Source: Vogesella margarita (GTDB lineage: Bacteria; Pseudomonadota; Gammaproteobacteria; Burkholderiales; Chromobacteriaceae). From it: a DNA stretch of 64,000 nucleotides. Positions 1,249 to 63,770 of this stretch are shown here, piece by piece; position 1 is the first letter of the stretch, and each line of letters begins with the position of its first letter. Location: NCBI RefSeq assembly GCF_028548475.1, contig NZ_JAQQLE010000011.1:89682-153681 (forward strand), in the 5' to 3' direction. Below the pieces are notes generated by a model. The model was not told the DNA's origin. It saw only the letters and a program-made list of their open reading frames with translations, and did not search any database. The translations under genes and the position numbers were made by a program.

Positions 1249-3051
1249 ATGCTTCAACGCGCGATGCGTGCCTGCGGCCAACGTTTCGGCTTGCCGACAA
1301 TGTTACTGGGCTACCTGCTGCTGTTGTGCTTTGCTACACCCGGCTTTGCCCAATCAGTGAACAATGCAGGGAAAACGCCACAAACCAACGCAACAGGTGC
1401 ACAAGCACAGCTTGAAGGTGAACTGGAGGTCTGGATCGAAGATGACTTCAAGGGAAAGAAAAGCCGTACTCGGCACTTCTTGAAGACCGAATCAGGGCCG
1501 CGTTACGAACTCAAGTTCAAGAAATCCCCACCACAGCACGAGCCTGGCAGCAAGATCCGGGTGAAAGGCACGCAGAGCGGCGACACACTCACTCTGGAAT
1601 TGGAGAGCAGTGATAGCAACAGCTACCAAATCCTGGCCGCGCCAGCACCTGGCTTGAGTTCACTAGGGGAGCAAAAGACGGCGGTACTGCTGGTCAACTT
1701 CCAGGATCAGCCGACGAACAAGCCGTGGACAACCGGTCAGTGGAACAGCTTTATGTTCGGCACGACCAGTGACTCGGTGAATCACTTCTTCCTTGAAAAT
1801 TCGTACCAGCAGACTTGGCTAACCGGGAATACTTTCGGCTGGTATACATTGCCAATAAATAGCACGGATACCTGTAACCAAAACAATATCGCCACAGCAG
1901 CCAAGTCGGCGGCGGAAGCCGCTGGCGTAGATCTCTCTTCCTATACCCGACTAGTGTTCGCTTTTCCGGCAAACAGTTGTAGTTGGAGCGGTCTGTCATC
2001 CACAGTAAGCGTCCCATCCCAATCGTTTATCAATGGCGGAATGTCTCTGAACATCGTCACACACGAATTGGGTCATGCTTTGGGTTTGTTCCATTCACAT
2101 GGGATTGACTGTGACGTCAGCGCAATCGGAAACATTTGTTCTTATGCGGAATATGGGGACAAGGTTGATACCATGGGTGCTGGCCTTGGGCACTTCAACG
2201 CGGCGCAAAAGGAACGGCTGGGGTGGCTTAATTACAATGTTTCCCCGCCAATTACGACCGTACAGAGCAACGGTAACTATGTTATCGAGCCAATTGAAAC
2301 TGGGAGCAGCGGCAGCGCCAAGGGTCTGAAGATTCTAAAGGGAACCGACCCCACTACCGGTACCCTAAGCTGGTACTACCTCGAGTACAGACAGCCGATT
2401 GGAATCGATGCATATATCACCAGCAAAAGTATTTACTATCCGGAAAACATTCTGGCCGGTGTGCTGGTTCATACAGCAACCGATGGTGCTGGAAATAGCA
2501 ACCACGAGGTAGACATGACTCCGGGTAGCCTAAACGCTTATTCCAGCCAAGACTTGAGCGATGCAGCCCTCGTTGTGGGTAAAAGCTACACAGATACTTC
2601 TGCTGGCGTAACTATCACTCCAACTTGGGCCAACAGTACCGGTATTGGTGTAGACGTCACTTTCAGCAAGTCGTCGTGCAACCGTGCCAATCCTTCGGTT
2701 GTAATGTCAACGCAAGCGTCTTCGGTAAAAGCTGGTTCGACCGTGATCTACACCGTGGTGGTGACCAACAACGACAGCAGTGAATGTGCCTCTTCCAACT
2801 TCAACCTGCAAGGAACTTTGCCCACAGGCTGGACCGAAGCCTGGTCAGCATCCCAAATGAATATTGGAGCTGGTAGTACGGCATCTACCTCCGTGACGAT
2901 AACCTCTTCGACGACATCAACCGCAGGAACCTATAGCATCACCGGCAAGGCGACCAATAGCATAGCAACAAGCTACAGCGGCAGCACTTCCAGCAATTAT
3001 GTCATTGCTACTTCCTCAACAACAACGAGCAAAGGTAAAGGCCGCAAGTAA
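1249..3051 (+). CDS. Secreted metzincin metalloprotease, gametolysin (M11)-like, with C-terminal NEW3-type domain
   Basis: Predicted secreted zinc endopeptidase of about 600 residues. Start 1249 is chosen because GAGAGGA lies just upstream and it opens directly into a signal peptide (Arg-rich start, hydrophobic LLGYLLLLCF, cleavage after PGFA); an in-frame GTG at 1174 would bury that signal. The catalytic motif HELGHALGLFH gives zinc ligands near residues 272, 276 and 282, with a Met-turn DTMGAG near 309, the metzincin layout; the LGHFNAAQKERLGWL stretch after it matches the M11/gametolysin group. The last ~120 residues form an Ig-like NEW3/CARDB-type domain. The start contains one copy of the window-wide GTTGGCCGC word (1274-1282, complement). 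Codon use is more AT-rich than its neighbours, suggesting transfer. Confidence 0.78.
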   Translation: MLQRAMRACGQRFGLPTMLLGYLLLLCFATPGFAQSVNNAGKTPQTNATGAQAQLEGELEVWIEDDFKGKKSRTRHFLKTESGPRYELKFKKSPPQHEPGSKIRVKGTQSGDTLTLELESSDSNSYQILAAPAPGLSSLGEQKTAVLLVNFQDQPTNKPWTTGQWNSFMFGTTSDSVNHFFLENSYQQTWLTGNTFGWYTLPINSTDTCNQNNIATAAKSAAEAAGVDLSSYTRLVFAFPANSCSWSGLSSTVSVPSQSFINGGMSLNIVTHELGHALGLFHSHGIDCDVSAIGNICSYAEYGDKVDTMGAGLGHFNAAQKERLGWLNYNVSPPITTVQSNGNYVIEPIETGSSGSAKGLKILKGTDPTTGTLSWYYLEYRQPIGIDAYITSKSIYYPENILAGVLVHTATDGAGNSNHEVDMTPGSLNAYSSQDLSDAALVVGKSYTDTSAGVTITPTWANSTGIGVDVTFSKSSCNRANPSVVMSTQASSVKAGSTVIYTVVVTNNDSSECASSNFNLQGTLPTGWTEAWSASQMNIGAGSTASTSVTITSSTTSTAGTYSITGKATNSIATSYSGSTSSNYVIATSSTTTSKGKGRK

Positions 3052-3089
3052 GACAGATTTAGCGCTCTTGTCGAACCTGGCTGGTTACC

Positions 3090-3138
3090 ATAAAACAAAG
3101 GGCAATGGGTCTTTCGCCCCATCGCCCTTTTGTTTTAT
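3090..3138. terminator. Bidirectional intrinsic terminator between convergent genes
   Basis: Long imperfect inverted repeat with outer arms ATAAAACAAAGGGC and its near complement GCCCTTTTGTTTTAT. A-runs on one side and T-runs on the other let it terminate both the metalloprotease (plus) and the repeat-domain protein (minus). Confidence 0.75.
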
Positions 3139-3156
3139 CCAACCAGAACATCAAGC

Positions 3157-5567: not shown

Positions 5568-5598
5568 AAAGGTTGGCCGCAAGCTGCGGCCAACCTTT
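5568..5598 (-). terminator. ahpF terminator built from two inverted GTTGGCCGC words
   Basis: Perfect 14-base arms AAAGGTTGGCCGCA and complement around a 3-base loop, 3 bases past the ahpF stop. Both arms are full copies of the window-wide repeated word. The AAA/TTT ends give only a short U-run. Confidence 0.75.
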
Positions 5599-5601
5599 GG
5601 C

Positions 5602-7176
5602 TCAGTCGGCGGTGACGCCGCTGCGGATCAGGTGGTCGAAAGCGCCCAGCGCAGCCTTGGCGCCCTCGCCCATGGCGATGATGATCTGCTTGTACGGCAC
5701 GTCGGTCACGTCGCCAGCGGCGAACACCCCCGGCACGGTGGTGTCCTGATGGCGGCCAACCAGAATCTCGCCACGGCTGGACAGCTCCACGCTGCCGCGC
5801 AGCCAGTCGGTGTTCGGCAACAGGCCGATCTGCACGAAAATCCCCTCCAGCGCAATGTGGCGCGCTTCGCCGCTGGCACGGTCAATATAGTCAAGGCCGC
5901 TCACCTTGCTACCATCGCCCGTCACTGCGGTGGTCTGCGCCTGCAGGATCACCGTGACATTGGGCAGGCTGCGCAGCTTGTTCTGCAGCACCGCATCGGC
6001 ACGCATGGCATCGCCGAACTCCAGCAGGGTAACGTGCGACACGATGCCGGCCAGGTCGATGGCTGCTTCAACGCCGGAGTTGCCGCCGCCAATCACCGCC
6101 ACGCGCTTGCCCTTGAACAGCGGGCCGTCGCAGTGCGGGCAGTAAGCCACGCCCTTATTTCGATACTCTTTTTCGCCCGGCACGTTCATTTCGCGCCAGC
6201 GCGCACCGGTGGCGATGATCACCGTTTTGGCTTTCAGGACTGCACCGCTTTGCAGCTGGATTTCGGTCAGGCCGCTGGCGGTTTCGCTGGCCGGCAGCAG
6301 CTTGCTGGCACGCTGCAGGTTCATCACGTCCACGTCGTATTCCTTGACGTGCTGCTCCAGCGCCATCGCCAGCTTCGGGCCTTCGGTTTCCTTCACCGAG
6401 ATGAAGTTCTCGATGCCCATGGTGTCCAGCACCTGGCCGCCGAAACGCTCGGCCACCACGCCGGTGCGAATGCCCTTGCGGGCGGTGTAGATGGCTGCCG
6501 CCGCGCCAGCCGGGCCGCCACCCACCACCAGCACGTCAAACGCCTCCTTGGCGGCAATCTTGTCGGCCTCGCGCGCTGCCGCTCCGGTATCTAGCCGGGC
6601 AACAATCTCTTCCAGCCCCATGCGCCCCTGACCAAACACTTCGCCGTTCAGGTACACGGTAGGTACCGACATGATCTGGCGGGCGGATACCTCATCCTGG
6701 AACAGCGCACCATCGATCATGGTGTGGCGGATGTTCGGGTTCAGCACCGCCATCAGGTTCAGCGCCTGCACTACGTCCGGGCAGTTCTGGCACGACAGCG
6801 AGATATAGGTTTCAAAGCGGAATTCGCCTTGCAGCTCTTTCACCTGCGCAATCAGCTCCTGCCCGGCCTTGGACGGATGGCCGCCCACCTGCAGCAGCGC
6901 CAGTACCAGCGAGGTGAATTCGTGCCCCATTGGCACACCGGCAAACTGCACGCGCGGCGCGGTGTCGCCACTGCGGCCAACGCTGAACGACGGCTGGCGG
7001 GCATCGTTGCCATCGAAGCGAGCGCTTACCTTGTCGGACAGACTGGCGATGTCGGCTAGCAGGCCGCGCACTTCCTCGTCCTTGGCGCCGCCGCCCAGAC
7101 TGGCCACCAGCTCGATCGGGTGCTGCAGGTTAGTGAGGTAGGCTTGCAGTTGGGTCTTGATAGCGTTGTCCAGCAT
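5602..7176 (-). CDS. ahpF: Alkyl hydroperoxide reductase subunit F
   Basis: Flavoprotein disulfide reductase that passes electrons from NADH to AhpC for detoxifying H2O2 and organic peroxides in the cytoplasm. At 524 residues it has normal length. The N-terminal tandem thioredoxin-fold domain carries the redox pair CQNC at residues 129 and 132, followed by a dinucleotide-binding motif [12 protein letters not shown] for FAD, the TrxR-like active pair CPHC, and a second GGGNSG motif for NADH. AAGGAG precedes the start. It lies downstream of ahpC on the same strand across a 245-base gap that holds a hairpin and a repeated word, suggesting partial separation of expression. Confidence 0.96.
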
Positions 7177-8737: not shown

Positions 8738-10054
8738 TCACGACTTGAGGTGGGTAAAACGGCCGATGGCCTCCACCACCGCATGCGCGCCGTCGCGGAT
8801 CTGCTCGATGGTGCTGCCGGCGCGCTGGGTTAGCGTCACGCTGTGCTGCGCCTGCTGCAGGATCTGCGCCATGCTCTGCACCGCGCTGCCGGTCTGCTGC
8901 TGGATGTCGCTGACCATGGCGGCAATCTCGGTGGTCGACGCGGTGGTGCGCTCCGCCAGCTTGCGCACCTCGTCGGCCACCACCGCGAAGCCACGGCCGG
9001 TCTCGCCGGCGCGCGCCGCCTCGATCGCCGCGTTCAGCGCCAGCAGGTTGGTCTGGTCGGCGATGTCCTTGATGGTCTGTACGATGGAGGTGATCTGCAG
9101 CGAGCGCGCGCCCAGCTGCTGCACAGTGCCGCTGGCCGCCTCGATGCTGCCGGCCATCTGCCGGATCTCGTCCACGCTCTGGCGGATACCGGCCACGCCG
9201 CTGTCCGACCACTCCAGCGTCTGCCGTGACGAGCCGTAGGCAAACTGGGCGCTGTCGCGCTCCTGCTCTACCTGCTCGACGCGGGCGCTGATGTCGGTGG
9301 CGAACTTGATCACGCTGACCACCTGCTTGTTTTCGTCCAGCACCGGGTTGTAGCTGGCCTCCAGCCACACAGTACGGCCGTCATGGTGACGGCGCCGGAT
9401 CTGGCCGGCGAAGAACTCGCCGCGGCGCAGGCGCTGCCACAGCTGTTCGTACTCCGCGCTGCCGGCGAACTCGTGCTCGCACAGCAGGCGGTGATGCCGG
9501 CCGCGCAGCTGCTCCGGCCGGTAGCCCATGGTGCGCAGGAAGTTGTCGTTGGCACCGACGATGGTTCCGTCGGGGCGGAACTCGATGGTCGCCATCGCGC
9601 GGTCCAGCGCCTGCAGTACCGAGCGGTTGTGCGCCGCCTCGCGCACGCGGGCGGTGATGTCGGTCGCAAACATCGCGTAGCCGTCGATCCGGCCGGCATC
9701 GTCGACGATCGGGCTGTACGTCGCCTCCAGCCACACCACCTCACCCGCGGCGGTCACGCGCCGCACCTCGCCCTGGAACGGCTCGCCGCGCTGCAAGTGC
9801 GCCCAGAACTGTGCGTAATCACGGCTGGCGGCATGGTCCCTGGCGCAGAACAGGCTGTGCGGCTGGCCGAGGATGTCGCCAAGCTGGCGGTAACCCAGTG
9901 CATCCAGAAAGTTCTGGTTGGCCGCCACCACCCTGTGCTCCGCATCGAAACGGACGCTGGCAAAGGAAGCCTCCAGTGCGCCGACAAGCGCCTGCTGTTT
10001 GCGCAGCTGCTGTTGCAGCTCGCCGATCTGCTGTTTGAGCCTGGTATTGAACAT
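8738..10054 (-). CDS. Soluble chemoreceptor with two PAS domains (BdlA/Aer-like)
   Basis: Methyl-accepting chemotaxis-type transducer of about 438 residues without a membrane segment. After a short coiled coil (residues ~1-25), two PAS domains follow (~25-125 and ~150-250), each ending in an ATDI(T/S)ARV-type exit, then a compact MCP signalling domain whose hairpin tip [19 protein letters not shown] is intact. An earlier in-frame ATG at 10114 lies in AT-rich promoter-like DNA; the start at 10054 opens directly into the coiled coil. The layout matches BdlA of Pseudomonas and related cytoplasmic energy/redox sensors; PAS cofactor (heme or FAD) cannot be told from sequence alone. Confidence 0.85.
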
Positions 10055-10493: not shown

Positions 10494-12380
10494 ATGTCGT
10501 TAAAACAGCGACTCCTGTTTTTTGTCGCCATCCTGCTGGCGATTGCCATCGCGCTGCTATCCGCGCTCTCCTACCAGCGCATGCGCAGCGAGATCATCCT
10601 TGGCGTGCAGCAGGAGCTGGACGCCGCCATCGCCGGCAACAGCGAGGCGCTCGGCCGCTGGATGGCCCAGCGCCGCGACGCCATCCAGTCGACGGCCAAC
10701 CGCCTCGCCGACGTCGACGCCAGCGCGCCCTACCCGTTCCTGCAACAGGGCAAGGAAGCCGGTGGTTTCGACCAGACCTTTGCCGGCTACACCGACAAGG
10801 CGATGCGCTACCACACGCCTGACAAGCTGCCGGGCGACGGCTACGACCCGACCGCGCGGCCGTGGTACCAGCTGGCGACCGCGCAGAAAGGCGTCGCCAT
10901 CACCGCGCCCTATGCCTTTGTAGAAAAACAGACGCTGGGCATCACGGTGGCCAGCCCCATCCTGCACGGCGGCACGCAGATCGGCGTGGTCGGCGGCGAC
11001 ATCTCGCTGGAAGGCCTGACCTCGGTGGTGAAGGCGATCAGGCTGCGCGGCGACGGTTATGCCTTCCTCGCCACGCGCGACGGCAAGATCGTCAGCCATC
11101 CGGCGACCGGCTCCACCCTCAAGCCGGTGGCCGAGGTGATGCCGGGCTTCGACGCCGCGCTGGTGAGCGCCGCCAGCAACAGCCCGACCCTGCATGAGGT
11201 GGAAATCGATGGCCGCAGCTACTACGCCGAAGTGGCCAACATCGCCGGCAGCGACTGGGTACTGGGCACGGTGGTGGAGAAGGACGTGATGCTGGCGCCG
11301 CTGAACCACCTGCTGCTGACGCTGGTGCTGGCGGGCCTCGCGGTCGCGGTGACCGGCATCGTGCTGGCCAACTTCGCCCTCACCCGCCTGCTGGCCAGCC
11401 TGATACGGCTGCGCGATGCGCTGCTGGATGTCGCCAGCGGCGACGGCGACCTGACCCACCAGCTGAGCGTGGACAAGCAGGACGAGATCGGCCAGACCGC
11501 CGAGGCATTCAACCGCTTCATCGGCAGCCTGCGACAGATGTTCCTGGAAGTGCGCGAGCACTCGGTGTCGCTCAACGGCGGCATCGACGCGCTGAACGGC
11601 ATCACCCGCCAGCTGGCCAGCGATTCTCAGCAGCAAGCGGACGCCTCCAGCGCCACCGCCGCCACCATCGAACAGATCACCGTCAGCATCAACCACATCG
11701 CCGGTAACGCTACCTCGGCGGAAGAGGTGGTGGTACAGACCGGGCAGACCTCGCGCCAGTCGGCGCAGGCGGTGGGCGAGCTGGCCGGCGGCATCGAACG
11801 CATCGCCGGCCAGGTCGGCCAGCTGGCCACCACCCTCGGCGCGCTGGGGCAGCGCTCGGCGCAGATGGACCAGATCATCAACGTGATCAAGGACATCGCC
11901 GACCAGACCAACCTGCTGGCGCTGAACGCGGCGATCGAGGCGGCGCGCGCCGGCGAGACCGGACGCGGCTTCGCGGTGGTGGCCGACGAGGTGCGCAAGC
12001 TGGCCGAGCGCACCGGCAAGGCCACGGTGGAGATCGGCGCGCTGATCGACGCCACCCACCACGACGTGGAATCGGCGCTGGGCGACATGGAACACACCCG
12101 TGAATCGGTACAGCACGGGGTCAGCGCTTCGCGCCAGGTCGCCGGGCAGATGGCCGGCATCGAGGACGAGGTGTCGCGCGTGGTACTGACCATCCGCGAC
12201 ATCGCCGACGCCACCCGCGAGCAGTCGATCGCCACCACCGACATGGCCCGCGCGGCGGAGACCGCCAACCACATGGCGATCGAAACCGACCAGGCGGTGC
12301 AAAGCGCCACCCGCACCGTGAACGAATTGCACCAGCTGTCCAACCACCTGCACGACATGGTGGCGCGCTTCCGCCTCTGA
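10494..12380 (+). CDS. Methyl-accepting chemotaxis protein with dCache amino-acid-binding domain
   Basis: Membrane chemoreceptor of 628 residues: transmembrane helix (~7-27), periplasmic double-Cache domain (~35-265), second helix (~270-295), HAMP (~297-350) and a signalling domain with the conserved tip [19 protein letters not shown]. The dCache domain carries the residues known to bind the amino-acid backbone in PctA-type receptors: Y117, R122, W124, Y125 in [10 protein letters not shown] and D169 in GGDISLE, at the same spacing. It is therefore probably an amino-acid sensor. No C-terminal CheR-docking pentapeptide is seen (it ends VARFRL). Confidence 0.92.
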
Positions 12381-12399
12381 GCGGTGTTTACGCCATGAC

Positions 12400-12435
12400 A
12401 AGGTTGGCCGCAGCGTCCGCGCTGCGGCCAACCTT
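12400..12435 (+). terminator. Terminator built from two inverted GTTGGCCGC words
   Basis: Perfect 16-base arms (AAGGTTGGCCGCAGCG and complement) around a 4-base loop, followed by a six-T run: a textbook intrinsic terminator 20 bases after the chemoreceptor gene. Confidence 0.92.
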
Positions 12436-12630
12436 TTTTGTTTGTTCACCTCGCCTCGGTCGGCACCGGCGCCGCGCCGGTTCATCGGCCCCGGAAGCGC
12501 CGGCCGGTGCCTGCCCTCGCAAATCGGCGCCACCGCCCGCGGCAACTCACTATATATAAGAGTGAACCGCCGCGCCGCCCCCACTGCGCGACGCCCTGCC
12601 ACCAGCGCCCCAGCGGCACAGGAAACGCTC

Positions 12631-18258: not shown

Positions 18259-18303
18259 GACAGATCTCCTCTTGATGTAGACAGGCGTGGGCTACCACAC
18301 CGT

Positions 18304-18344
18304 TGCGGCCAACCTTGCTCTTGCTGTTGCTTTGGGTTGGCCGT
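18304..18344 (-). terminator. Inverted GTTGGCCGC-type words between MFS and binding-protein genes
   Basis: A full TGCGGCCAACCTT copy at 18304-18316 faces a decayed copy (GGTTGGCCGT, 18335-18344) across about 20 bases, giving a 9-base stem 47 bases after the MFS stop. Its position suggests a terminator, but there is no clear U-run. Confidence 0.45.
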
Positions 18345-44015: not shown

Positions 44016-44036
44016 GATGGTATCGGATGGGGTTCA

Positions 44037-44049
44037 AGGTTGGCCGCAA
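44037..44049 (+). repeat. Intergenic AAGGTTGGCCGCA word between rnhA and dnaQ
   Basis: Single full copy in the 46-base gap; no inverse partner. Confidence 0.65.
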
Positions 44050-50096: not shown

Positions 50097-50539
50097 AGCG
50101 GGCACTCCATCAGCAAGGCATCCTCGCGGCCGTGTTCGTGCCGGTAGTAACCCTTGCGCACGCCGCAGTCGACAAAGCCGAGCGCGCGGTACAGGCCGAT
50201 GGCGGCGACATTGCCGGCGCGCACCTCCAGCAGGCAACGCGTGACACCGGCCGCCTTGGCCTCGTTCATGGCCGCCTGCAACACGGTGCGGGCATGGCCA
50301 CGGCGCTGTGCGGCCAACGGCACGAAAATATTGTGGATGTGCAATTCGTCCAGGATCTGCTCGGACACCAGCACCGCCAGCCATTGTTCGGCCTGCGGCA
50401 ACACCTGCACCCGCTCGCTTGCGGAAGCCAGTGTTTGCGCGTAGACCGCCACGGCCCACGGATGCGCGCACACCGCCGACTCCAGCTGGTGCAACGCTTC
50501 GGCCAGCGCCGGATCGGACAGCCGACGCAGCTCAGCCAT
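50093..50539 (-). CDS. rimI: Ribosomal-protein-S18 alanine N-acetyltransferase
   Basis: GNAT acetyltransferase of 148 residues with the acetyl-CoA loop AAQRRGHARTVLQAAMNEAKA and a C-terminal ALGFVDCGVRKGYYRH motif, matching RimI. Overlaps the tsaB stop by 8 bases and the glycosylase start by 4, so all three are one operon. Confidence 0.92.
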   Translation of the reverse strand: MAELRRLSDPALAEALHQLESAVCAHPWAVAVYAQTLASASERVQVLPQAEQWLAVLVSEQILDELHIHNIFVPLAAQRRGHARTVLQAAMNEAKAAGVTRCLLEVRAGNVAAIGLYRALGFVDCGVRKGYYRHEHGREDALLMECPL

Positions 50540-52435: not shown

Positions 52436-54301
52436 TCAGTAAGAATAATTATCAGCATTGCGCAGCATCATCGTGCCGCTACCCGATGCATCCGCCTGCC
52501 CTGACAGCAAGTCTTCCATGTCCAGCACCAGTACTACCGAACCGTCACCGGACAGGGTCGCACCGGCAACCCCCTTCGGACGGATGTTCTGCAGCGGCTT
52601 GATCACCACATCGTCACGACCGACAAAGGAGTCGACGGCGAGGATGAAGGACTTCTCGGCGGATTGCATCAGCACACCGAATTGCGGCTTCTGGGTCGGC
52701 GCCCAGTTCAGCAGGTTGGCCAGCGTCTTCAACGGCAGGATCTCGTCGCGTACCACGATGGTTGGCCGCCCGGAAACCTCCTGGATGGCAGAGACATCGA
52801 TAGGAATGATTTCGCGCACCATGGCCAGCGGTACGGCAAATGGCTGGTTGCAGGCACGAACCACCAGCACTGGGAGGATAGCCAGTGTCAGCGGCAGAGA
52901 GATGCTGATCCGGGTACCGACACCTTGCTCAGAGTTGATGTCGATACGGCCATTCAGCTTCTGGATATTGGTCCGTACCACATCCATGCCGACACCACGG
53001 CCGGACACGTTCGAAATCTGGTCCTTGGTGGAGAAGCCCGGCAGGAAAATCAGCTGCAGGCACTGCTTCTCGTCGAGACCGTTTGCTGTTTCCGCGTCGA
53101 TCAGGCCTTTTTCGATGGCCTTACGGCGCAGTGCCTCGGGATTCATCCCCTTGCCGTCATCGGTGATCTCGATGACGATATGATCGCCGACCTGCTCGGC
53201 CGACAGCTGCACCAGCGACTGCGGCTTCTTGCCGACGCTGATGCGCTCCTCGGAGGATTCGACACCGTGGTCGACCGCATTGCGCACCAGATGCACCAGC
53301 GGATCGTTCAGGTCCTCAATCATGGTCTTGTCGAGTTCAGTCTCCTCGCCAGTAATGACCAGCTCGACTTCCTTGCCCAATTGTCGCGCCAGATCACGCG
53401 CCAGACGCGGATACTTCTGGAACAGACGGCCGATCGGCTGCATGCGGGTCTTCATCACCGCATTCTGCAAATCGCTGACCAGCAGATCCAACTGGCTGAT
53501 CGCCTCGTCGAGGGAGCGCAGGGTATGCGTCTCCATATTGCCCTGCAGGATTTCGGTACGCAGCGTGGTCAGGCGGTTCTTGGTCAGACCGATTTCACCG
53601 GACAGGTTCAGCACCTGATCCAGACGGACGGTATCGATACGAATGGTGTTTTCCGGCGGCGCACTGGCCATGCCTTGCTGTGGCGCCACTTTTGCCGGTA
53701 CCGGCTTGGCTGCCACGACCGGCATCGCCGGCGTCTCGACCACAGCCTCAACCACCGGCGCAGCAACAGCTGCGGACGGCGCCGGCGTCGATGCAGCCGC
53801 AGCCGTGGCCTTGGTTACCGCGGCGTGCAGCACATTCCAGTCCGGTGTATTGGCAGCGGCAGCCGGTGTCGCTGCAGGCGCAGCAACCGGTGCCGCAGGG
53901 ACCGCCAGATTACCAGCCAATGCACTATCCAGCGCCGCGAGCAGACCGGCATCCGGCACGGCCGGCGACAATCCTTGCGACAGGGTGGTGAACATGCCAC
54001 GCACCACGCCGGTTGCATCCAGGATCACATCCATCAGCTCAGACGACAGCGGCAACTCGCCATTGCGCAGCTTGTCGAAAAGGTTCTCGGTACGGTGACA
54101 AATGGTCACCATTGCCGACACATTCAGAAAGCCGGCTCCGCCCTTGATGGTATGGAAGCCCCGGAAGATATCATTCAGCAACGCCTTGTCATTAGGCCGT
54201 TTCTCGAGCTCGCACAGCTTGTTGTCGACATCGGACAACAGCTCGGTGGACTCGAGCAGGAAATCCTGCATCAGATCTTCCATACCTGCAAAGTCGCTCA
54301 T
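52436..54301 (-). CDS. cheA: Chemotaxis histidine kinase CheA lacking a P2 domain
   Basis: CheA of about 621 residues. P1 (HPt) has H50 in FHTIKGGAGF; the region where P2 should be (~125-215) is an Ala/Val/Pro-rich, low-complexity linker with no visible CheY-docking fold; then P3 dimerisation (LDQVLNLSGEIGLTKNRL), P4 kinase with N box VRNAVDHGVES and G boxes ITDDGKGMNP and GRGVGMDVV, and P5 CheW-like. Start 54301 follows AAGGAAG; the frame to 54385 is rejected. Last chemotaxis gene of cheV-cheV-cheY-cheZ-cheA. Confidence 0.93.
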   Translation of the reverse strand: MSDFAGMEDLMQDFLLESTELLSDVDNKLCELEKRPNDKALLNDIFRGFHTIKGGAGFLNVSAMVTICHRTENLFDKLRNGELPLSSELMDVILDATGVVRGMFTTLSQGLSPAVPDAGLLAALDSALAGNLAVPAAPVAAPAATPAAAANTPDWNVLHAAVTKATAAAASTPAPSAAVAAPVVEAVVETPAMPVVAAKPVPAKVAPQQGMASAPPENTIRIDTVRLDQVLNLSGEIGLTKNRLTTLRTEILQGNMETHTLRSLDEAISQLDLLVSDLQNAVMKTRMQPIGRLFQKYPRLARDLARQLGKEVELVITGEETELDKTMIEDLNDPLVHLVRNAVDHGVESSEERISVGKKPQSLVQLSAEQVGDHIVIEITDDGKGMNPEALRRKAIEKGLIDAETANGLDEKQCLQLIFLPGFSTKDQISNVSGRGVGMDVVRTNIQKLNGRIDINSEQGVGTRISISLPLTLAILPVLVVRACNQPFAVPLAMVREIIPIDVSAIQEVSGRPTIVVRDEILPLKTLANLLNWAPTQKPQFGVLMQSAEKSFILAVDSFVGRDDVVIKPLQNIRPKGVAGATLSGDGSVVLVLDMEDLLSGQADASGSGTMMLRNADNYSY

Positions 54302-54356
54302 TTTGACTTCCTTTTCATTATCGGCCCGCAGTAGACGGCCTAGACGATCTCGCGTC

Positions 54357-55088
54357 TTAGAAACCCAAGCTTTCCAGCAAATCATCCACTTGCTGCTGAT
54401 TGGTCACCACGTCGGAACGGCCATCAGGGTTCACGACTGGCCCCTGCAACAGATCAGTGCCGAGCTCCACTTTCTTCTCGGCCGGCAGGTATTCGATCAG
54501 CACGGTCAGCAGCTCGCTTTCCAGCGTTTTGACCATGTCCATGACCTTCTTGATCACTTGCCCGGTCAGATCCTGGAAATCCTGAGCCATCACGATTTCC
54601 AGCAACTGGGCATTGGTTGCCGCCGTCTGTTGCGGTGCCTGCGCCAGGAATCGGCGGGTATCAGCAGCCAGCAGCTTGAAATCGTCAACGGACAACTGGT
54701 TGGCAAACAACTGGTCCCAACGCCCCGACAGGCTTGCGGACTGGGACTGCAGCTCATCCTGGATCGGACGGGCAATATCGGTGGCATTCAGCACACGCTC
54801 TGCAGCATTGGCTGTCAGCGTGGCGATGTAACCCAAACGGTCCTTGGCATCGGGAATGGCATCCGCCACTTTTTCCAGGGACTTGTCGTACCCCAGCTCG
54901 CGCAGTGCATCGTGCAGCTTGCGGGTCATTTGCCCGATCTGGGCATAAATTGCCAACGCAGCCTGGGGATTCGCGCCATCAACCTCTATCGAGGATGCCT
55001 CTTGTTGAGAGGCCTGCTGTTTGGCAATGCTTTCAAATAGAGCTTCCAGCTCTGGCGAGTCGCCACTTTCAAGAAGATGATCCGGCAC
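54357..55088 (-). CDS. cheZ: CheY-P phosphatase CheZ
   Basis: All-helical chemotaxis phosphatase of about 243 residues. The catalytic motif QDFQDLTGQVIKKV, with the Asp and Gln of CheZ, is intact; a central long hairpin and a C-terminal CheY-docking helix (QQVDDLLESLGF) are seen. The start is probably a GTG at 55088 with an AGGAG site eight bases upstream; the frame is open to a TTG at 55106, whose upstream has no site. Confidence 0.93.
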   Translation of the reverse strand: MPDHLLESGDSPELEALFESIAKQQASQQEASSIEVDGANPQAALAIYAQIGQMTRKLHDALRELGYDKSLEKVADAIPDAKDRLGYIATLTANAAERVLNATDIARPIQDELQSQSASLSGRWDQLFANQLSVDDFKLLAADTRRFLAQAPQQTAATNAQLLEIVMAQDFQDLTGQVIKKVMDMVKTLESELLTVLIEYLPAEKKVELGTDLLQGPVVNPDGRSDVVTNQQQVDDLLESLGF

Positions 55089-55122
55089 GACAATTTCTCC
55101 TGGCAAACAGTACAGGCTGCTT

Positions 55123-55512
55123 TTATTTGTTTAGGCTCTGGAAGATCTTGCCCATCTTTTCTTCCAGTGTCGCGGCAGTAAATGGCTTCACGATATAGCC
55201 ACTGGCCCCCGCCGTTGCGGCCTCGATGATGTTCTCGCGTTTCGCTTCTGCGGTAATCATCAGGAACGGCAGTGTCTTCAGCTGCGGATCGGCCCGCACC
55301 GCACGCAGCAGTTCGATACCGGTCATGTTCGGCATGTTCCAGTCGGAGACGATGAAGTCGAAATGCTGTGTCTTCAGCTTGTGCAATGCGACTTGGCCAT
55401 CCTCGGCCTCGTCCACATTGGTAATGCCCAACTCCTTCAGGAGGTTGCGCACAATCCTTCTCATTGTTGAGAAATCATCAACAACCAGAAATCTCATATT
55501 TTTATCAATCAT
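55123..55512 (-). CDS. cheY: Chemotaxis response regulator CheY
   Basis: Single receiver domain (129 residues) with acidic pocket D12/D13, phosphorylation site D57 (VSDWNMP), T87 and K109, exactly aligned with E. coli CheY. AGGAAAAAGG precedes the start. Lies between cheV and cheZ. Confidence 0.97.
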
Positions 55513-55556
55513 TGCCTTTTTCCTGACCTGATATCCATTCCCAGCTTATTTTGTTC

Positions 55557-56492
55557 CTAGCGCTGAAGGAAAGGAATAATTGTATCCGCTAGTACCGCTG
55601 GGTCGAACTTGGCGACATAGGCGTCGACGCCGACACTGGCACCCATGGCCCGGTTGGCATTCGACGACAGGGATGAGTGCATCACGATCGGGATGCCGGA
55701 GAAGCGGGCATCCGACTTGATCAGTTTGGTCAAGACATAACCGTCCATTTCCGGCATTTCCGCATCAACCAGAATAAGTTTCAGGTTGTCGTGCAGGCTT
55801 TCGGTGTCGGACCAGGTTCTGTTCGCCAGAACCTGCAACTTGTCCCACGCTTCTTTGCCGTTATTTGCCTGATGATACTTGATGGACATCTTGTCCATCA
55901 CGTTGGAAATTTCTTTCCGCGCCACGACCGAGTCGTCGACAAAGAACACGTACTGGTCATCCTCCAGCGCAGCCTGCGGAATATCCGGCAAACGCGTCTC
56001 GCCGACAACACTGGACAGGATCTGCTCGACATCCAGGATGGAGACCAGCTTGCCGTCTTCCAGCTCGGTTACCGCCGTGATCAGGGTCTGCTGGGTAGTA
56101 TTCATCACATTTTCAGGCGCACGCACCTTGTCCCAGTCGACACGGATGATGCGGTCTACCGAATCCACCAGGAACGCCTGGGTACTCTTGTTGAATTCGG
56201 TAACGATCATGGTGTTGTAGCCACCTTCCGCCAACTCACAGCCGATGAACTTGGCCAGCGAAATCACGGGGATGATATTGCCGCGCAGGGACAACACCCC
56301 CTCGACACCGAACGGCATATTGGGGGTTTTGGTAACGAAAGGCGTCTGCGACACTTCGCGCACCTTGAATACGTTGATCCCGAAGGTTTCGCGGGTCCCC
56401 AGCGAAAACAGCAGGATTTCCATCTTGTTCGACCCCGCCAGCTTGGTACGGGCATCGATATTGGCTAGCAAAGAGGCATCAGAGGCGGACAT
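55557..56492 (-). CDS. cheV: Chemotaxis coupling protein CheV (copy nearest cheY)
   Basis: CheW-like domain (~1-160; KMEILLFSLGTRETFGINVFKVREV) fused to a receiver domain (~170-311; YVFFVDDSVVARKEI, DAEMPEMDG). It couples receptors to CheA and adapts by phosphorylation. Start 56492 follows AAGGAG; the frame to 56498 would place the GTG on the ribosome site. Adjacent to a second cheV. Confidence 0.93.
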   Translation of the reverse strand: MSASDASLLANIDARTKLAGSNKMEILLFSLGTRETFGINVFKVREVSQTPFVTKTPNMPFGVEGVLSLRGNIIPVISLAKFIGCELAEGGYNTMIVTEFNKSTQAFLVDSVDRIIRVDWDKVRAPENVMNTTQQTLITAVTELEDGKLVSILDVEQILSSVVGETRLPDIPQAALEDDQYVFFVDDSVVARKEISNVMDKMSIKYHQANNGKEAWDKLQVLANRTWSDTESLHDNLKLILVDAEMPEMDGYVLTKLIKSDARFSGIPIVMHSSLSSNANRAMGASVGVDAYVAKFDPAVLADTIIPFLQR

Positions 56493-56522
56493 GGCCACTC
56501 CTTAAATAAAGCGCAAATCAGC

Positions 56523-57488
56523 TCAAATCTTCAGCATCTCGCGGATTTTCATCGAGAGCTTTTGTGGCTCGAACTTGGAGACATAGGCATCGACACCAAC
56601 CGACTCACCCAGCTTCTGGTTGGACTGACCCGACAGCGAGGAGTGCATCAGCACAGGAATGCCATGGAAGCGCGGATCGGACTTGATCAGCTTGGTGAGC
56701 ATATAACCGTCCATCTCCGGCATCTCGACGTCGGTCAGCACCAGGTTCACGACATCGCTCAGCTTGCGCCCGGCCAGCTCGGCCTGCGACGCCATGCGCT
56801 GCAGGTCATCCCAGGCTCGCATGCCATTGATGGCCGAAGCGTACTTGATGTTCATGACTTCGAATGTCTGCTGGATCTGTTTGCGCGCAACCGCCGAGTC
56901 GTCGGCAAAGTACACCATGCGCGGCTCTTTGATCGGATCGATGCCGATGAACTGGTGCTCGTCACCGTACATGGCCGTTTCTGCCAGCACCTTTTCAACG
57001 TCCATCATCATGACCAGCGTGCCGCCATCCAGCTCGGTCACTGCTGTAACCAGACCGCCCATCCGGTTGGTAATCATCTCCGGCGGCACCCGCATCGCGG
57101 CCCAGTCCAGTCGCAGGATGGTATCCACCGCTTCGACCAGAAAGCCCTGGGTATGGCCGTTGTACTCGGTCACAATCATGATTTCCGGACGCTTCTCGCT
57201 GACGATACCGGCGTAGCGCGCCAGATCGATCACCGGCACCAGGCTGCCACGCAGGCTGACCATGCCCTCGACGGAAGAAGGCATTTCCGGCGCCGACGTG
57301 ATTTCCGGTGTCCGCATTACCTCGCGCACTTTGAAAACGTTGATGCCGAAGGTCTCCTTGCGCCCTGTTCTTTGGTCAACCCCAAGAGAGAACAAGAGAA
57401 TTTCCAGTTTGTTCGTTCCTGCCAGCTTGGTGCGGGCATCGATTTTTTTAAGAAGCTCAGACACGGAAACCTCCGAGTAAAAATTCAT
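56523..57488 (-). CDS. cheV: Chemotaxis coupling protein CheV (first copy)
   Basis: 321 residues, CheW-like plus receiver domain (MVYFADDSAVARKQI, LTDVEMPEMDG), first gene of the operon. About half identical by eye to the next one, so the pair looks like an old duplication; differences near the CheW surface (an insert SLGVDQRTGRKETFG) could select different receptors. Divergent from the sensor kinase. Confidence 0.93.
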   Translation of the reverse strand: MNFYSEVSVSELLKKIDARTKLAGTNKLEILLFSLGVDQRTGRKETFGINVFKVREVMRTPEITSAPEMPSSVEGMVSLRGSLVPVIDLARYAGIVSEKRPEIMIVTEYNGHTQGFLVEAVDTILRLDWAAMRVPPEMITNRMGGLVTAVTELDGGTLVMMMDVEKVLAETAMYGDEHQFIGIDPIKEPRMVYFADDSAVARKQIQQTFEVMNIKYASAINGMRAWDDLQRMASQAELAGRKLSDVVNLVLTDVEMPEMDGYMLTKLIKSDPRFHGIPVLMHSSLSGQSNQKLGESVGVDAYVSKFEPQKLSMKIREMLKI

Positions 57489-57665: not shown

Positions 57666-58838
57666 ATGACGAACAATCCATCAACAGACGCCACACCAGA
57701 GACGTTGGCCGCAACATTTGCTCACTTCAACGCGGTAACCGATGAACTGATCAGAGCATACCAACAGCTTGAAATCAAAGTTGAAGAGTTGAACAGTCAG
57801 TTGACCCAGGCCAATGATGAACTACTGCAAAAGTCTCAAGCCAATGCCCAGCTGGCGCAGAGGCTGGCCACGCTCGTTAATGAGTTACCCGCAGGCGTCA
57901 TAGAAACGGATGCACAAAAGCAGATCATTTCCCTGAATAATGCCGCCAAAACGATGCTGCCCAGGCTGCAAAACCATGCACACTGGGACGAAACGGCGCT
58001 ACTGAACCAGATGGATGCAGACGGCGTCATTCACCTCGCCGACCCTCACAGCGGCAGGACGCGCTATCTAACCCTGCAAACCTGCCCGCTGGACGACCAG
58101 TCAACGATTTTCCTGCTTCATGACGTGGGAACCCTGCGCCATCTGCATGAACAACTGGCGCAACAAAACAAGCTGGCCTCCATGGGGCAAATGGCCGCCT
58201 CGCTGGCTCACCAGCTGCGCACTCCGCTCGCCACCGCCCTGCTCTACGCCAAGAACCTCGAGCGGCCAACCCTTTCCGCCGAGGAGCGACTGAAGTTTTC
58301 ACGCAAGATCGTCGACCGGTTACAAGCGCTGGAGGGGCTAACCCAGGAAATGCTGGGATTTGTGCGCCAGAACACCTCCAGCGAACAGATCACACGCTAC
58401 CCGTTATCCGAGCTGGTACATGAACTGGAGCAGTCGTTCGCACCACAATGCGAGGGCCATGGCGTGCGTTTCCAGATCCGCAGTGACGCGCTGGCGCAAG
58501 CATCATTAAACTGCCGGCCCAAAGAGCTGACAGCGGCCATGATCGGCCTGCTCGAAAATGCGCTACAACACGTGCCGGCTGACGGAAAAATCATGCTGGA
58601 GGTGCTGAACCGCGAAAACTGTCTTACATTCAAAATATGGGACAACGGCCCCGGCATTGCTCAGGAACTGGTGCCCCGCATCTTTGAACCCTTTTTCACG
58701 ACCAGGGCAAACGGCACCGGTCTTGGCCTAGCCATTACCAAGCGGGTAATTGACGCACTGGGTGGCGAGCTAAGTTATCATCGCGACGATGACAACACCG
58801 TGTTCTCGGTTGTCCTTCCACAGACAGGCGAACCATGA
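57666..58838 (+). CDS. Sensor histidine kinase, FleS/FlrB-like
   Basis: Cytoplasmic kinase of about 390 residues: N-terminal coiled coil (~25-65), PAS-like domain (~70-165), H-box MAASLAHQLRTPLATALLYA and HATPase motifs (LLENALQHVP, DNGPGIA, TRANGTGLGLAITKRV). The H-box matches flagellar kinases FleS/FlrB. No FleR/FlrC gene follows; a STAS-domain gene overlaps its stop instead. Start uncertain (57666 or 57651), neither with a ribosome site. A GTTGGCCGC word lies near the start (57704). Confidence 0.82.
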   Translation: MTNNPSTDATPETLAATFAHFNAVTDELIRAYQQLEIKVEELNSQLTQANDELLQKSQANAQLAQRLATLVNELPAGVIETDAQKQIISLNNAAKTMLPRLQNHAHWDETALLNQMDADGVIHLADPHSGRTRYLTLQTCPLDDQSTIFLLHDVGTLRHLHEQLAQQNKLASMGQMAASLAHQLRTPLATALLYAKNLERPTLSAEERLKFSRKIVDRLQALEGLTQEMLGFVRQNTSSEQITRYPLSELVHELEQSFAPQCEGHGVRFQIRSDALAQASLNCRPKELTAAMIGLLENALQHVPADGKIMLEVLNRENCLTFKIWDNGPGIAQELVPRIFEPFFTTRANGTGLGLAITKRVIDALGGELSYHRDDDNTVFSVVLPQTGEP

Positions 58839-59973: not shown

Positions 59974-60465
59974 ATGGCCATTTCCGATTTCAGCTTCAAC
60001 ACCATCGATGGACACAGCACACCCCTCGCCCGCTTTTCCGGTCGCGTCCTGTTACTGTGCAACACGGCCAGCGAGTGCGGCTTCACCAAGCAATACGAGG
60101 CACTGGAAAAGCTGCATCGACGCTACCAGCACGAGGGATTGAGCGTAATCGGTTTTCCCTGCAACCAGTTTGGGCAACAAGAACCGGGACAAGCAACAGA
60201 CATCAAGCAATTTTGCCAGATCCGGTACGGCGTCAGCTTTCTGCTGAGCGAAAAAATCGAGGTCAACGGCCAGCATGCCCACCCTCTCTGGCAGTACCTT
60301 ACGAAGCACAAGCGAGGGATTCTGGGCAGCAAGGCCATCAAGTGGAACTTCACCAAATTCCTGATTGATCGCGAAGGCAAAATTGTTGGCCGCTATGGGC
60401 CACTAACCCCACCGCAAGCACTGCAAGACCGGATAGAAGAATTACTGCAGGTAAAAACCGGGTGA
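59974..60465 (+). CDS. Glutathione/thioredoxin peroxidase (cysteine type)
   Basis: Peroxidase of about 163 residues (Gpx/BtuE fold) reducing peroxides. Cys35 replaces selenocysteine in NTASECGFTKQY; Gln and Trp of the tetrad lie in FPCNQFGQQE and KWNFTKFLID. Start 59974 follows the terminator run closely; another in-frame stretch upstream lies in dcd and is rejected. Confidence 0.92.
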   Translation: MAISDFSFNTIDGHSTPLARFSGRVLLLCNTASECGFTKQYEALEKLHRRYQHEGLSVIGFPCNQFGQQEPGQATDIKQFCQIRYGVSFLLSEKIEVNGQHAHPLWQYLTKHKRGILGSKAIKWNFTKFLIDREGKIVGRYGPLTPPQALQDRIEELLQVKTG

Positions 60466-60901: not shown

Positions 60902-61357
60902 TCACTGCCCCAGCGCTGGCATGCTGTACAGCTTGAGCATGAAGCTGGTGAATGCCGGCTGTGCCGGCTTGCCTGCCAGACGCGGCCAACGTTCCAGCCA
61001 CAGCTGCAAGCGCTGTTGCATCAGTTGTTGCGCCTTGGCGCCATCCAGCTGTCCGGCATCGCGACGTACCGCAATCTGGCGATACAGGGCGAACACATCA
61101 TCATCGACTGCATTGCGGCCAACCAGTTGTACGCGTAGCGCTCCCAGTCGATCGGCAACCTGAACCCGGTTCAGCTCACCCTTGGCCAGTCGTGCGGAAA
61201 GCGCTTGCGCCTCCTCGTACAGGCGTTGGGATGGTGCGACCGCAACAGGCCGCGGCGTGACACTCCCGCCGACACCAGACGAAGGCGGCAGCACGGCACA
61301 TCCCGACAGCACGCCCGAAATAAAAACGACCATGAATATCTGTTTCATGGTCGTCAT
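60902..61357 (-). CDS. Predicted lipoprotein, unknown function
   Basis: About 151 residues with a signal peptide and lipobox (LSGC, then AVLPP). The rest is helical and hydrophilic (LARRLAKGELNRVQVAD region), with no domain I recognise. Start 61357 or 61348; the frame further upstream overlaps the cysK stop. Lies between cysK and ychJ on the same strand. Confidence 0.6.
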   Translation of the reverse strand: MTTMKQIFMVVFISGVLSGCAVLPPSSGVGGSVTPRPVAVAPSQRLYEEAQALSARLAKGELNRVQVADRLGALRVQLVGRNAVDDDVFALYRQIAVRRDAGQLDGAKAQQLMQQRLQLWLERWPRLAGKPAQPAFTSFMLKLYSMPALGQ

Positions 61358-61379: not shown

Positions 61380-62312
61380 TCAAGCAAGGTGCTCAAATAA
61401 TGGCGTCGACAGGTAACGCTCACCAAAAGACGGGATCACCACCACAATCAGCTTGCCGGCATTTTCCGGACGCTTGGCCAACTGCAAGGCGGCCCACACG
61501 GCGGCACCGGAGGAAATCCCCACCAGCACACCTTCCTTGGTTGCCACGGCACGGGCAGTCTCGAAGGCATCCTCATTCTTGACCCGGATCACCTCGTCGT
61601 AGATCTCGGTATTCAGGATGGCCGGCACAAAACCGGCACCAATGCCCTGGATCGGATGCGGCCCCTTGGCCCCGCCGGACAACACCGGCGACGCGTCCGG
61701 CTCGACCGCCACGATCTGCACCCCGGGTTTGCGTGCCTTGAGCACCTCACCCACACCGGTAATAGTGCCGCCAGTACCAACGCCAGCAACAAAAATATCG
61801 ACTTGCCCGTCGGTATCGCGCCAGACCTCTTCCGCGGTGGTCTGACGGTGGATCTCCGGATTGGCAGGGTTCTCGAACTGCTGCGGCAGGAAGTAGGTTT
61901 CAGGGTTGGCCGCAACCAACTCCTTGGCCTTGGCGATGGCGCCACCCATGCCTTCCGGACCGGGGGTCAGGATCAGTTCCGCACCATAGGCGCGCAGCAA
62001 TTGGCGACGCTCGCGGCTCATCGTTTCCGGCATGGTGATTACCAGCTTGTAGCCACGCGCTGCACAGACCATGGCCAGGCCGATACCGGTATTGCCCGAT
62101 GTCGGCTCGACAATAATCGTCTCCGGTCCGATCTTGCCAGCCCGCTCCGCCGCATCAATCATCGATACCGCGATACGGTCCTTGACGCTATGCCCGGGAT
62201 TGAAGAACTCCAGCTTGGCGACCACCGTCGCCCCTACGCCCTCGGTGACCCGATTGAGGCGCACCAGCGGGGTATTGCCGATCAGCTCAGTAACAGAATT
62301 TGCGATGTGCAT
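61380..62312 (-). CDS. cysK: Cysteine synthase A (O-acetylserine sulfhydrylase)
   Basis: PLP enzyme of 310 residues that makes cysteine from O-acetylserine and sulfide. K44 in [19 protein letters not shown] and [11 protein letters not shown] loops are intact. Start 62312 ([18 protein letters not shown]) has GGAGG just upstream. The MxxAKAK-type loop and lack of a rhodanese domain fit CysK rather than CysM. Confidence 0.95.
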
Positions 62313-62471: not shown

Positions 62472-63005
62472 TCAGCTGATGCCGACCAGCACCTTCTGCC
62501 AGGCACGATGGACTTCGTCATCAAAGGCGACAAAAACAATCTTGCGCAGCGCCGGCGGCGGTGCCGCCAGATAGGTTTCCACCACATGCCAAGCGATATT
62601 GGCCGCAGCCAGCGGCGGAAAATGGTTGGCACCACAACTGATGGCGGCGAAGGCGATGGAGCCTACCTGCTTCTCTGCCGCCAGTTGCAGGCTCTTGTGA
62701 TAGCACGACGCCAGCAATTGTGCCTCGTTATCCTCACCGCCTTTCCACAATGGCCCGACCGCGTGAAAAACCCAGCGCGCCGGCAAGGCAAAACCTGGCG
62801 TGACACAAACATCCCCCGCTGCACAGCCCCCCTGCCGCAAACAGGCCGCAAGCAGCTCGCCACCAGCGGCACGATGCACCGCCGCGTCCACCCCGCCACC
62901 GCCACGCAATGAAACGTTGGCCGCATTCACGATTGCCGAGACATCCAGCTGCGTGATGTCGCCACGCCAGACCTCGACCCGCACGCCGTTACGAACGGTC
63001 AGCAT
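62472..63005 (-). CDS. Macrodomain ADP-ribose/O-acetyl-ADP-ribose hydrolase
   Basis: Macrodomain protein of 177 residues (YmdB/AF1521-like). ADP-ribose-binding segments IVNAANVSLRGGGGVDAAVHRAAG, RWVFHAVGPLW and SCGANHFPPL are intact, with the catalytic Asn/Asp region. It may remove ADP-ribose from proteins or hydrolyse O-acetyl-ADP-ribose; no sirtuin or ART is nearby. Confidence 0.9.
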   Translation of the reverse strand: MLTVRNGVRVEVWRGDITQLDVSAIVNAANVSLRGGGGVDAAVHRAAGGELLAACLRQGGCAAGDVCVTPGFALPARWVFHAVGPLWKGGEDNEAQLLASCYHKSLQLAAEKQVGSIAFAAISCGANHFPPLAAANIAWHVVETYLAAPPPALRKIVFVAFDDEVHRAWQKVLVGIS

Positions 63006-63033: not shown

Positions 63034-63056
63034 GAAAAACCCCTCGCGAGAGGGGC
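63034..63056 (-). terminator. Intrinsic terminator of the ProQ-like gene
   Basis: Arms CCCCTC and GAGGGG around GCGA with a five-U run on the minus strand, 17 bases after the stop. Confidence 0.85.
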
Positions 63057-63072
63057 TGGCAACATCGGAGCA

Positions 63073-63513
63073 TTACGCTTCAGAGATATCGGAAGCGACA
63101 GGGTCGGCAGAAGGCTGCGGCACCTCGGCGGCAACGGTCGCGGGCTTCTCCGCTTTTGGCAGCGTCATTTTCTCGGCGGCCGCTTTTTCCTCAGCCGAAA
63201 CCACACCCACCGGTTTGAGCGCGAGATCGAAGCGCTTACCACCACGCGCAAGCGACTTCACGTAGCGCTGTTTGCGACAATGGTTGGCCAGCATGCGCGA
63301 AACCAGTTGCGGATCAAACTGCGGCAGTTCCGCAATCAAGGCCTCATGAATCCCCAGCGCCAAAGGACGGAATAGTTTGAACACGTCGTACTTGGCGTAA
63401 ACATGTGCCGCAATCATTTCTGTCTGGCTTTTCTTGCTAAGACTCTGGACAGCTGACTTGAGCGCCGCACCGAGCGCGGTTTCATTGTTGGACTTCATCT
63501 GAGGATTCTTCAT
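63073..63513 (-). CDS. ProQ/FinO-domain RNA-binding protein
   Basis: RNA chaperone of about 146 residues. The FinO/ProQ core (~25-115) is clear: KYDVFKLFRPLALGIHEAL, VSRMLANHCRKQRYVKSLARGGKRFDL with basic RNA-binding residues. The C terminus (~115-146) is Ala/Glu/Pro-rich and lacks ProQ's Tudor-like domain, so it resembles NMB1681-type minimal ProQ of Neisseriales. Start 63513 (MKNPQMKSNN). Confidence 0.88.
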   Translation of the reverse strand: MKNPQMKSNNETALGAALKSAVQSLSKKSQTEMIAAHVYAKYDVFKLFRPLALGIHEALIAELPQFDPQLVSRMLANHCRKQRYVKSLARGGKRFDLALKPVGVVSAEEKAAAEKMTLPKAEKPATVAAEVPQPSADPVASDISEA

Positions 63514-63770
63514 GGTTAATCTCATGGGGCAACACGGAGAAGCGACAAGTAGTGAACGACCCACTCTGACACGACCCGAAAAAAGACGCCTATCTTAATG
63601 CAGAGCCGGTCTTGTTGCTACGACTACCGTCATCGACTCGTACTATAGGACACAAGCCAGCATCTGGCGTTCGTATACGGAGCCCATTGCACTGCTGAGC
63701 CGGCAGGAAGACTGGTCAAGGTTGGCCGCAATGCACTTGAGGAGCGGATAAGGTAGCACCACAAAGCACA
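63514..63770. other. Intergenic region between ProQ-like gene and 5S rRNA
   Basis: No gene. Holds the ProQ-like gene upstream region and a single full AAGGTTGGCCGCA copy (63719-63731) just past the rRNA terminator. Confidence 0.6.

Follow-up and report, generated by a model that had tools for sequence, protein, structure and literature searches.

To our knowledge, DNA uptake words as abundant as the one considered here, a short repeat in a 64,000-nucleotide stretch of the Vogesella margarita genome (the window), have been described for two bacterial families, Neisseriaceae and Pasteurellaceae. The uptake signal sequence of Pasteurellaceae (AAGTGCGGT) works similarly, as an abundant self-specific word with uptake bias and terminator pairs, but has no evident sequence likeness, by eye, to the Vogesella word; PMC12616744 predicts ComN/PpdA, and not ComP, as its receptor. 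The DNA uptake sequences (DUS) of Neisseria (AT-DUS, AG-DUS, mucDUS, kingDUS, simDUS, and eikDUS) are 10- to 15-bp repeats with at least 1,000 copies, strand neutral, found in genes and in inverted pairs behind genes, with one dialect per clade and an encoded ComP minor pilin, and the Vogesella word is like them in all these respects. Published DUS dialects, including those in PMC10715097, start with AGG, ATG, or AAG, followed by four variable bases, CTG, and then AA or CA. The CTG at positions +6 to +8 is common to all eight dialects and was needed for transformation in the tests reported in PMC3630211.

The 13-mer AAGGTTGGCCGCA is very probably a DUS of the Neisseria type, bound by a predicted ComP and favoring DNA from close kin. 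The original prediction of an uptake sequence is supported by a genome-wide excess of the word, the absence of strand bias, dialects in related genera, and a ComP gene. In the proposed mechanism, a retracting type IV pilus would bind the word in double-stranded DNA through its ComP, and ComEA and ComEC would bring the DNA inward. Biased uptake followed by recombination would multiply and maintain the word (molecular drive), with paired copies also serving as transcription terminators; DNA from close kin would thereby be taken up preferentially.

Abundance, form, and placement of the word

The window (G000:C11:89682-153681) is part of a 3.33-Mb genome in 26 contigs; the 464-kb set referred to below combines it with 400 kb of contig C1. 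The window contains 50 exact copies of the core GTTGGCCGC (29 plus, 21 minus), against 2.01 ± 1.25 expected from 100 dinucleotide shuffles (largest value, 6) and 2.1 to 4.8 from Markov models of order 1 to 4. The strong excess originally claimed therefore stands, although the count of 48 given with it was slightly low. The 13-mer AAGGTTGGCCGCA occurs 18 times in the window and 951 times genome-wide (466 plus, 485 minus), far over expectation and with a reversed-word control of 0, so that the word is not confined to this region. In the 464-kb set, 131 exact 13-mers were observed versus 0.037 expected, an ∼3500-fold excess, and single-base core variants had 0 to 3 copies each. The motif built from the 342 core copies of this set, cAA[G/C]GTTGGCCGCAa, carries clear information at only ∼14 to 15 positions, with no conservation in the flanks. 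Variants are partly tolerated at the left edge, where 48 copies have AAC.

A strong leading-strand orientation, the expected sign of a recombination or segregation marker, was not found: the 400 kb of contig C1, with positive GC skew in 10 of 10 40-kb tiles, contain 146 copies on each strand, and within called genes 100 copies run along the gene direction and 99 opposite to it. On this part of one contig, the word is therefore neutral with respect to replication and transcription, as are DUS-type uptake sequences. Of the 292 copies on C1, 199 are inside called genes and 93 in noncoding DNA, which makes up 12% of C1; the genes were called by codon usage, which misses part of the genes where the GC content of the window is low. 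Copies are spread more evenly than at random (variance/mean, 0.68 in 58 tiles of 8 kb over 464 kb), with no preferred zone. Low-GC tiles hold 4.56 copies per 8 kb versus 6.14 in the others (9 versus 49 tiles; Spearman correlation of GC with count, 0.35; P = 0.007), a deficit too modest for a claim that islands are depleted. The longest copy-free stretch of C1 (88.9 to 101.2 kb; 12.3 kb) was considered as a foreign island, with four proteins scanned, including a flagellin and a nucleotidyl transferase, and was rejected as such. Inside genes, certain reading frames are preferred, with GCG GCC AAC (Ala-Ala-Asn) accounting for 96 of 228 copies in the coding regions of the window and C1; the protein sequence may thus bend to accommodate the word.

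Inverted pairs behind genes

Close pairs (<60 bp apart) in the 464-kb set comprise 36 inverted and no direct ones (P = 3e-11). For 30 of the inverted pairs, a stop codon lies no more than 60 bp away, and a T-run of at least four is present at just 12 of the 36; 270 of the 342 copies lie outside such pairs. The original prediction had interpreted inverted pairs as terminators. Five close pairs in the window, 7 to 22 bp past stop codons, do fold into hairpins (−24 to −34 kcal/mol; z scores of −3.4 to −6.2), and their role in termination is predicted. The 80-kb samples from six other word-bearing genomes showed 14 inverted pairs and no direct pairs. Among the named genomes listed for at least 98 stretches with two close inverted copies, all are Vogesella, metagenome-assembled genomes named Neisseriaceae bacterium, or Beta proteobacterium L13. 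In their position and orientation, the inverted pairs behind genes match the terminator pairs of DUS-type uptake sequences.

Pairs in minus-then-plus order often have no gap: 12 of 20 such pairs in C1 and the window abut, forming the 18-bp palindrome GCGGCCAACGTTGGCCGC. Some of the copies with an AAC flank may owe it to these palindromes.

Dialects in the family Chromobacteriaceae

Vogesella belongs to the family Chromobacteriaceae of the order Neisseriales. All 13 Vogesella genomes, including the source genome, contain 680 to 1095 copies of AGGTTGGCCGCA, compared with 0 to 15 in 24 other Chromobacteriaceae genomes and 0 to 5 in 24 genomes from other families. Among 369 genomes across the class (one of the family), AGGTTGGCCGMR has 1161 copies in the source genome and at most 19 in each of the other 368.

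Related genera do have dialect words of the kind that the original prediction proposed to look for. In 80-kb samples from each of nine other Chromobacteriaceae genera (g2 to g10), the words were AGGTTGGCCGAA(G) in g2, GTTGGCCGAA in g3, GTTGGCCGAGC in g4, GGTTGGCCGAAG in g5, and GGTTGGCCGAA in g10; the samples from g6 to g9 contained no related word. In a count over 61 family genomes, GGTTGGCCGAR reached 126 to 1068 copies in all those of g2 (3/3), g3 (2/2), g4 (2/2), g5 (1/1), and g10 (1/1) and in 1 of 10 of g6, and only 4 to 20 copies in the 38 other non-Vogesella genomes. Some form of the word is thus present in 23 of the 61 genomes (13 from Vogesella and 10 others) and absent from 38. Each clade has one dialect: the CA form in 13/13 Vogesella genomes and an AA or AG form in the 10 genomes from six other genera.

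The degenerate pattern AGGYHRBCYGMR, which covers these words and the DUS dialects, stands out in 6 of 6 Vogesella genomes and in 10 of 11 genomes of family f44 (450 to 4766 copies). The word-finding script, applied to f44, yields GCCGTCTGAA and AGGCCGTCTG; f44 was accordingly taken as Neisseriaceae and the method as working. In 375 genomes sampled from the order outside both families, the highest excess read was ∼3.1-fold over the reversed control. The pattern is compositionally noisy, with genome G204 from another family at 3.1 times its control, equal to G017 of genus g6, so G017 was judged instead on GGTTGGCCGAR (629 versus 8). Its 629 copies compare with 4 to 15 in the other g6 genomes, and its ComP has a β1-β2 loop of the word-bearing type and lacks the α1-β1 lysine (see below). 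The word in G017 is either a relict or a regain.

Between Vogesella species, with inverted pairs excluded, single sites were retained in 2/10, 3/8, 21/26, and 17/21 cases at 70 to 80, 80 to 90, 90 to 95, and 95 to 100% identity, respectively, a small excess over shuffled 9-mers in the same bins (16, 30, 62, and 68%). The word is thus maintained as its individual positions change, a pattern that uptake drive would allow and that does not prove it. With the inverted pairs included, conservation seemed strong (7/15, 7/12, 29/34, and 29/33), but the loci compared had been chosen for holding such a pair; as the excess without them is small, site conservation was not used as support.

No description of this word was found in a search of open papers on uptake sequences or transformation in Vogesella, Chromobacterium, and Chromobacteriaceae and for its letters, subscription papers being outside the scope. 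According to PMC3630211, Laribacter, Lutiella, Pseudogulbenkiania, and two Chromobacterium genomes lack an obvious DUS, in agreement with the occurrence of word-free genera here.

ComP candidate and competence genes

The presence of ComP or another minor pilin had been named as a check, and the genome does contain a predicted comP gene, located near the pilMNOPQ operon. Its product shares 81 to 97% identity with the nine closest relatives in the database, including one named Vogesella sp. EB, and is closest to ComP among solved proteins in both sequence and fold. The family PF16732 (ComP_DUS) was rejected as a diagnostic, as it also matches, and with a higher score, a PilE-type paralogue (L195); ComP was therefore identified by PDB profile search, fold, and tree. 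A first, weak AlphaFold model (predicted local distance difference test score, 65) was replaced by one from a deeper alignment. ComEC, ComEA, DprA, and PilQ score over their family cutoffs and type IV pilins are present; the same four families also match in control genomes without uptake words.

ComP homologues are found family-wide, in most word-bearing and most word-free genomes. In Neisseria ComP, nuclear magnetic resonance data in PMC12061091 map DNA contacts to the β1-β2 loop tip, part of the α1-β1 loop, and the DD-region. The loops were aligned for ComPs from 14 of the 23 word-bearing and 10 of the 38 word-free family genomes and from 6 of 11 Neisseriaceae; near copies, frames not fully cut (including the word-bearing G021), and weak matches were excluded. 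The β1-β2 motif N-T/A/V-D is present in 14/14 word-bearing and 0/10 word-free family ComPs, and the α1-β1 lysine in 13/14 and 0/10, respectively, counts for which no significance is claimed, the motifs having been chosen after seeing the alignment and related genomes being counted repeatedly. The word-free G035 ComP has NID in place of NTD, NAD, or NVD. The lysine is also found in 5/5 ComPs from DUS-bearing Neisseriaceae, is absent from that of the DUS-free G147, and accompanies RNTD in 33/33 Vogesella-like database proteins. Perhaps the receptor loops and the word change together.

In Vogesella, the start of comP is overlapped by a fast-diverging GspH-like pilin gene (L129:10506-11042). In eight more distant Vogesella, this pilin is 34 to 40% identical, compared with 38 to 50% for comP and 72 to 75% for aroB; ComP and this pilin could be partners. 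Several Neisseriaceae encode two ComP or ComP-like proteins (L250/L278, L253/L275, and L254/L276), with adjacent genes in G187. The two copies in G424 have identical protein sequences, and the two genes in G315 are ∼13 kb apart.

Relation to Neisseria DUS and alternative explanations

The family form AGGTTGGCCGAA, which reads AGG TTGG CCG AA, aligns with mucDUS and simDUS (AGGTCGTCTGAA and AGGCTGCCTGAA) without a shift in register or orientation and is identical to them in 9 of 12 bases, a match reached by 0.3 to 0.9% of random words (P = 0.003 to 0.009). The Vogesella word itself matches the Neisseria dialects at 6 to 8 of 12 positions, and 8/12 is reached by 2 to 5% of random words. The original prediction noted that the word contains no Neisseria core, and CTG is absent from it, but the in-register match of AGGTTGGCCGAA speaks against the word being simply unrelated to DUS. 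Two observations weigh against assignment to the published system: the family logos have CCG instead of CTG, and the family ComPs, which are shorter than those of Neisseria and come from another bacterial family, have one C-terminal cysteine pair and not the two disulfides with a DD-region. The lack of the second cysteine pair and an overall charge that is not positive as a rule argue against a joint change of receptor and word. The ComP of the DUS-rich Neisseriaceae genome G224 likewise has one C-terminal cysteine pair, so two disulfides are not universal in Neisseriaceae ComP. The Vogesella word further differs by the C at +9, and that of g4 by a G at +10; king3DUS (AAGCAGCCTGCA) provides a parallel with its C at +9 (PMC10715097). 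Given the missing CTG and second disulfide, the word is filed as a DUS-like variant and not as a ninth dialect.

The word may be a far-diverged DUS dialect and not an independent invention. A shared ancestry with Neisseria DUS is likely, if unproven, because AGGTTGGCCGAA aligns in register with the AGG....CTGAA dialects, with CTG changed to CCG. A fuller scenario, given a slightly better than even chance, is that the DUS/ComP code predates the Neisseriaceae and was present in their common ancestor with Chromobacteriaceae; CTG would have become CCG as the two DNA-facing loops of ComP co-changed, and at least two lineages would have dropped the code, after which the loops decayed. It is unlikely, albeit worth serious consideration, that the likeness to DUS is due to chance and that two genuine uptake codes evolved independently, both built on the one ComP pilin that had been inherited. 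The low identity of the Vogesella word, its lack of the CTG core, the family-wide presence of ComP regardless of words, and the 38 word-free genomes would all be expected in that case. On the other hand, the commonest genus form shows the 9/12 match, the α1-β1 lysine is common to DUS-bearing Neisseriaceae and word-bearing family ComPs, and the 375 order genomes outside the two families stay within ∼3.1-fold of the reversed control.

Other functions have been considered for a word of this kind. A Chi-like or FtsK-orienting polar sequence (KOPS)-like signal, read by RecBCD or FtsK and giving recombination or segregation a leading-strand direction, would also be a short and very abundant word of core genes. 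Chi and KOPS are shorter, less overrepresented, and strand biased along replichores, whereas the Vogesella word has 13 to 15 specified bases, its ∼3500-fold excess, and a 146/146 strand distribution on DNA whose GC skew keeps one sign (100/99 with respect to gene direction); together with the favored inverted pairs, the lack of direct ones, and the 38 of 61 family genomes that do not carry the word, this makes such a role extremely improbable. Hardly more credible is a terminator or repetitive extragenic palindrome-like hairpin element with single copies as its debris. It would account for the 36 inverted pairs, the 30 near stop codons, and the stable hairpins in the window, but not for the 270 unpaired copies and the 199 of 292 C1 copies inside called genes; the 15-bp motif without conserved flanks is unlike a mobile repeat, and only a third of the pairs (12/36) have the T-run. 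A binding site for a nucleoid, replication, or restriction-modification protein, improbable as well if less so, agrees with the genus-wide abundance and with a sharp, nonpalindromic 13-mer that a protein could read. Against it are the genus-specific word endings and the even spread with no preferred zone. Restriction sites, moreover, are usually shorter and avoided.

Features of the window

Single copies and inverted pairs are listed in Table 1. No word-free stretch in the window is longer than the one in the low-GC chemotaxis cluster at 52436-57263, which encodes a CheA-like protein, CheZ, and two CheW-response regulator proteins. A minus-strand 5S rRNA gene lies at the edge of the window (63808-63920).

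Table 1. Copies of the word and their inverted pairs in the window
Feature	Position	Strand	Context
Inverted pair (+ then −)	5568-5598		7 bp past stop of minus-strand gene 5602-7176; likely terminator hairpin
Inverted pair (+ then −), CTTTTTT after	12399-12436		22 bp past stop of gene 10494-12380; shaped like a classic terminator
Inverted pair (− then +)	31735-31767		18 bp past stop of minus-strand gene 31784-35011
Inverted pair (− then +)	36840-36873		21 bp past stop of gene 35483-36820
Inverted pair, gap 0, perfect palindrome	41407-41428		14 bp past stop of minus-strand gene 41441-42103
Word AAACGTTGGCCGCAG	1272-1286	−	
Word, exact core, poor flanks	5750-5764	−	Within gene 5602-7176
Word	6971-6985	−	Within gene 5602-7176
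Full 15-mer consensus CAAGGTTGGCCGCAA	7217-7231	+	
Word, exact core	9913-9927	+	Within gene 8738-10054
Word	14420-14434	−	Within gene 14004-15212
Word	15104-15118	+	Within gene 14004-15212
Word	17292-17306	−	Within gene 16756-17442
Full 15-mer consensus	18303-18317	−	
Word	18837-18851	+	Within gene 18391-19629
Word	21339-21353	+	
Word	21850-21864	+	Within gene 21461-23140
Word, exact core	22369-22383	+	Within gene 21461-23140
Word	23215-23229	−	
Word	23893-23907	+	Within gene 23366-26410
Word	24213-24227	−	Within gene 23366-26410
Word, exact core	25233-25247	−	Within gene 23366-26410
Word	26426-26440	+	
Word, exact core	27265-27279	+	Within gene 26522-27568
Word	29798-29812	+	Within gene 28680-31583
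Word	30416-30430	−	Within gene 28680-31583
Word, exact core	33358-33372	+	Within gene 31784-35011
Full 15-mer consensus	34243-34257	+	Within gene 31784-35011
Word, exact core	35941-35955	+	Within gene 35483-36820
Word	39217-39231	−	Within gene 39029-40483
Word	42753-42767	+	Within gene 42613-43296
Full 15-mer consensus	44035-44049	+	
Word	45709-45723	+	Within gene 45258-46031
Full 15-mer consensus	48985-48999	−	Within gene 48294-49232
Full 15-mer consensus	49976-49990	+	Within gene 49332-50096
Word, exact core	50308-50322	−	Within gene 50093-50539
Word, exact core	52757-52771	+	Within gene 52436-54301 (CheA-like)
Word	57700-57714	+	At called start of gene 57705-58838
Word, exact core	58260-58274	−	Within gene 57705-58838
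Word, exact core	60381-60395	+	
Word, exact core	60980-60994	−	Within small called gene 60902-61096
Word, exact core	61113-61127	−	
Word	61901-61915	+	Within gene 61380-62312
Word	62912-62926	+	
Full 15-mer consensus	63717-63731	+	

Implications

The genomic evidence suggests that Vogesella and related water bacteria are naturally competent and select DNA of their kin. A third family, with a dialect in some or all genomes of seven genera, would extend the uptake code beyond Neisseriaceae, and the word offers a ready tag for attempts at transforming Vogesella and its relatives. The dialects, the word-free sister genomes, and the presence of ComP in most of both would constitute a natural experiment on the birth, shift, and death of such a code. 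The same contrast bears on which ComP residues read DNA, a question that is hard to address within Neisseria, as CTG is common to the eight dialects published. If the code does predate the Neisseriaceae, freshwater bacteria would hold a second, mutually unreadable branch of one mating language.

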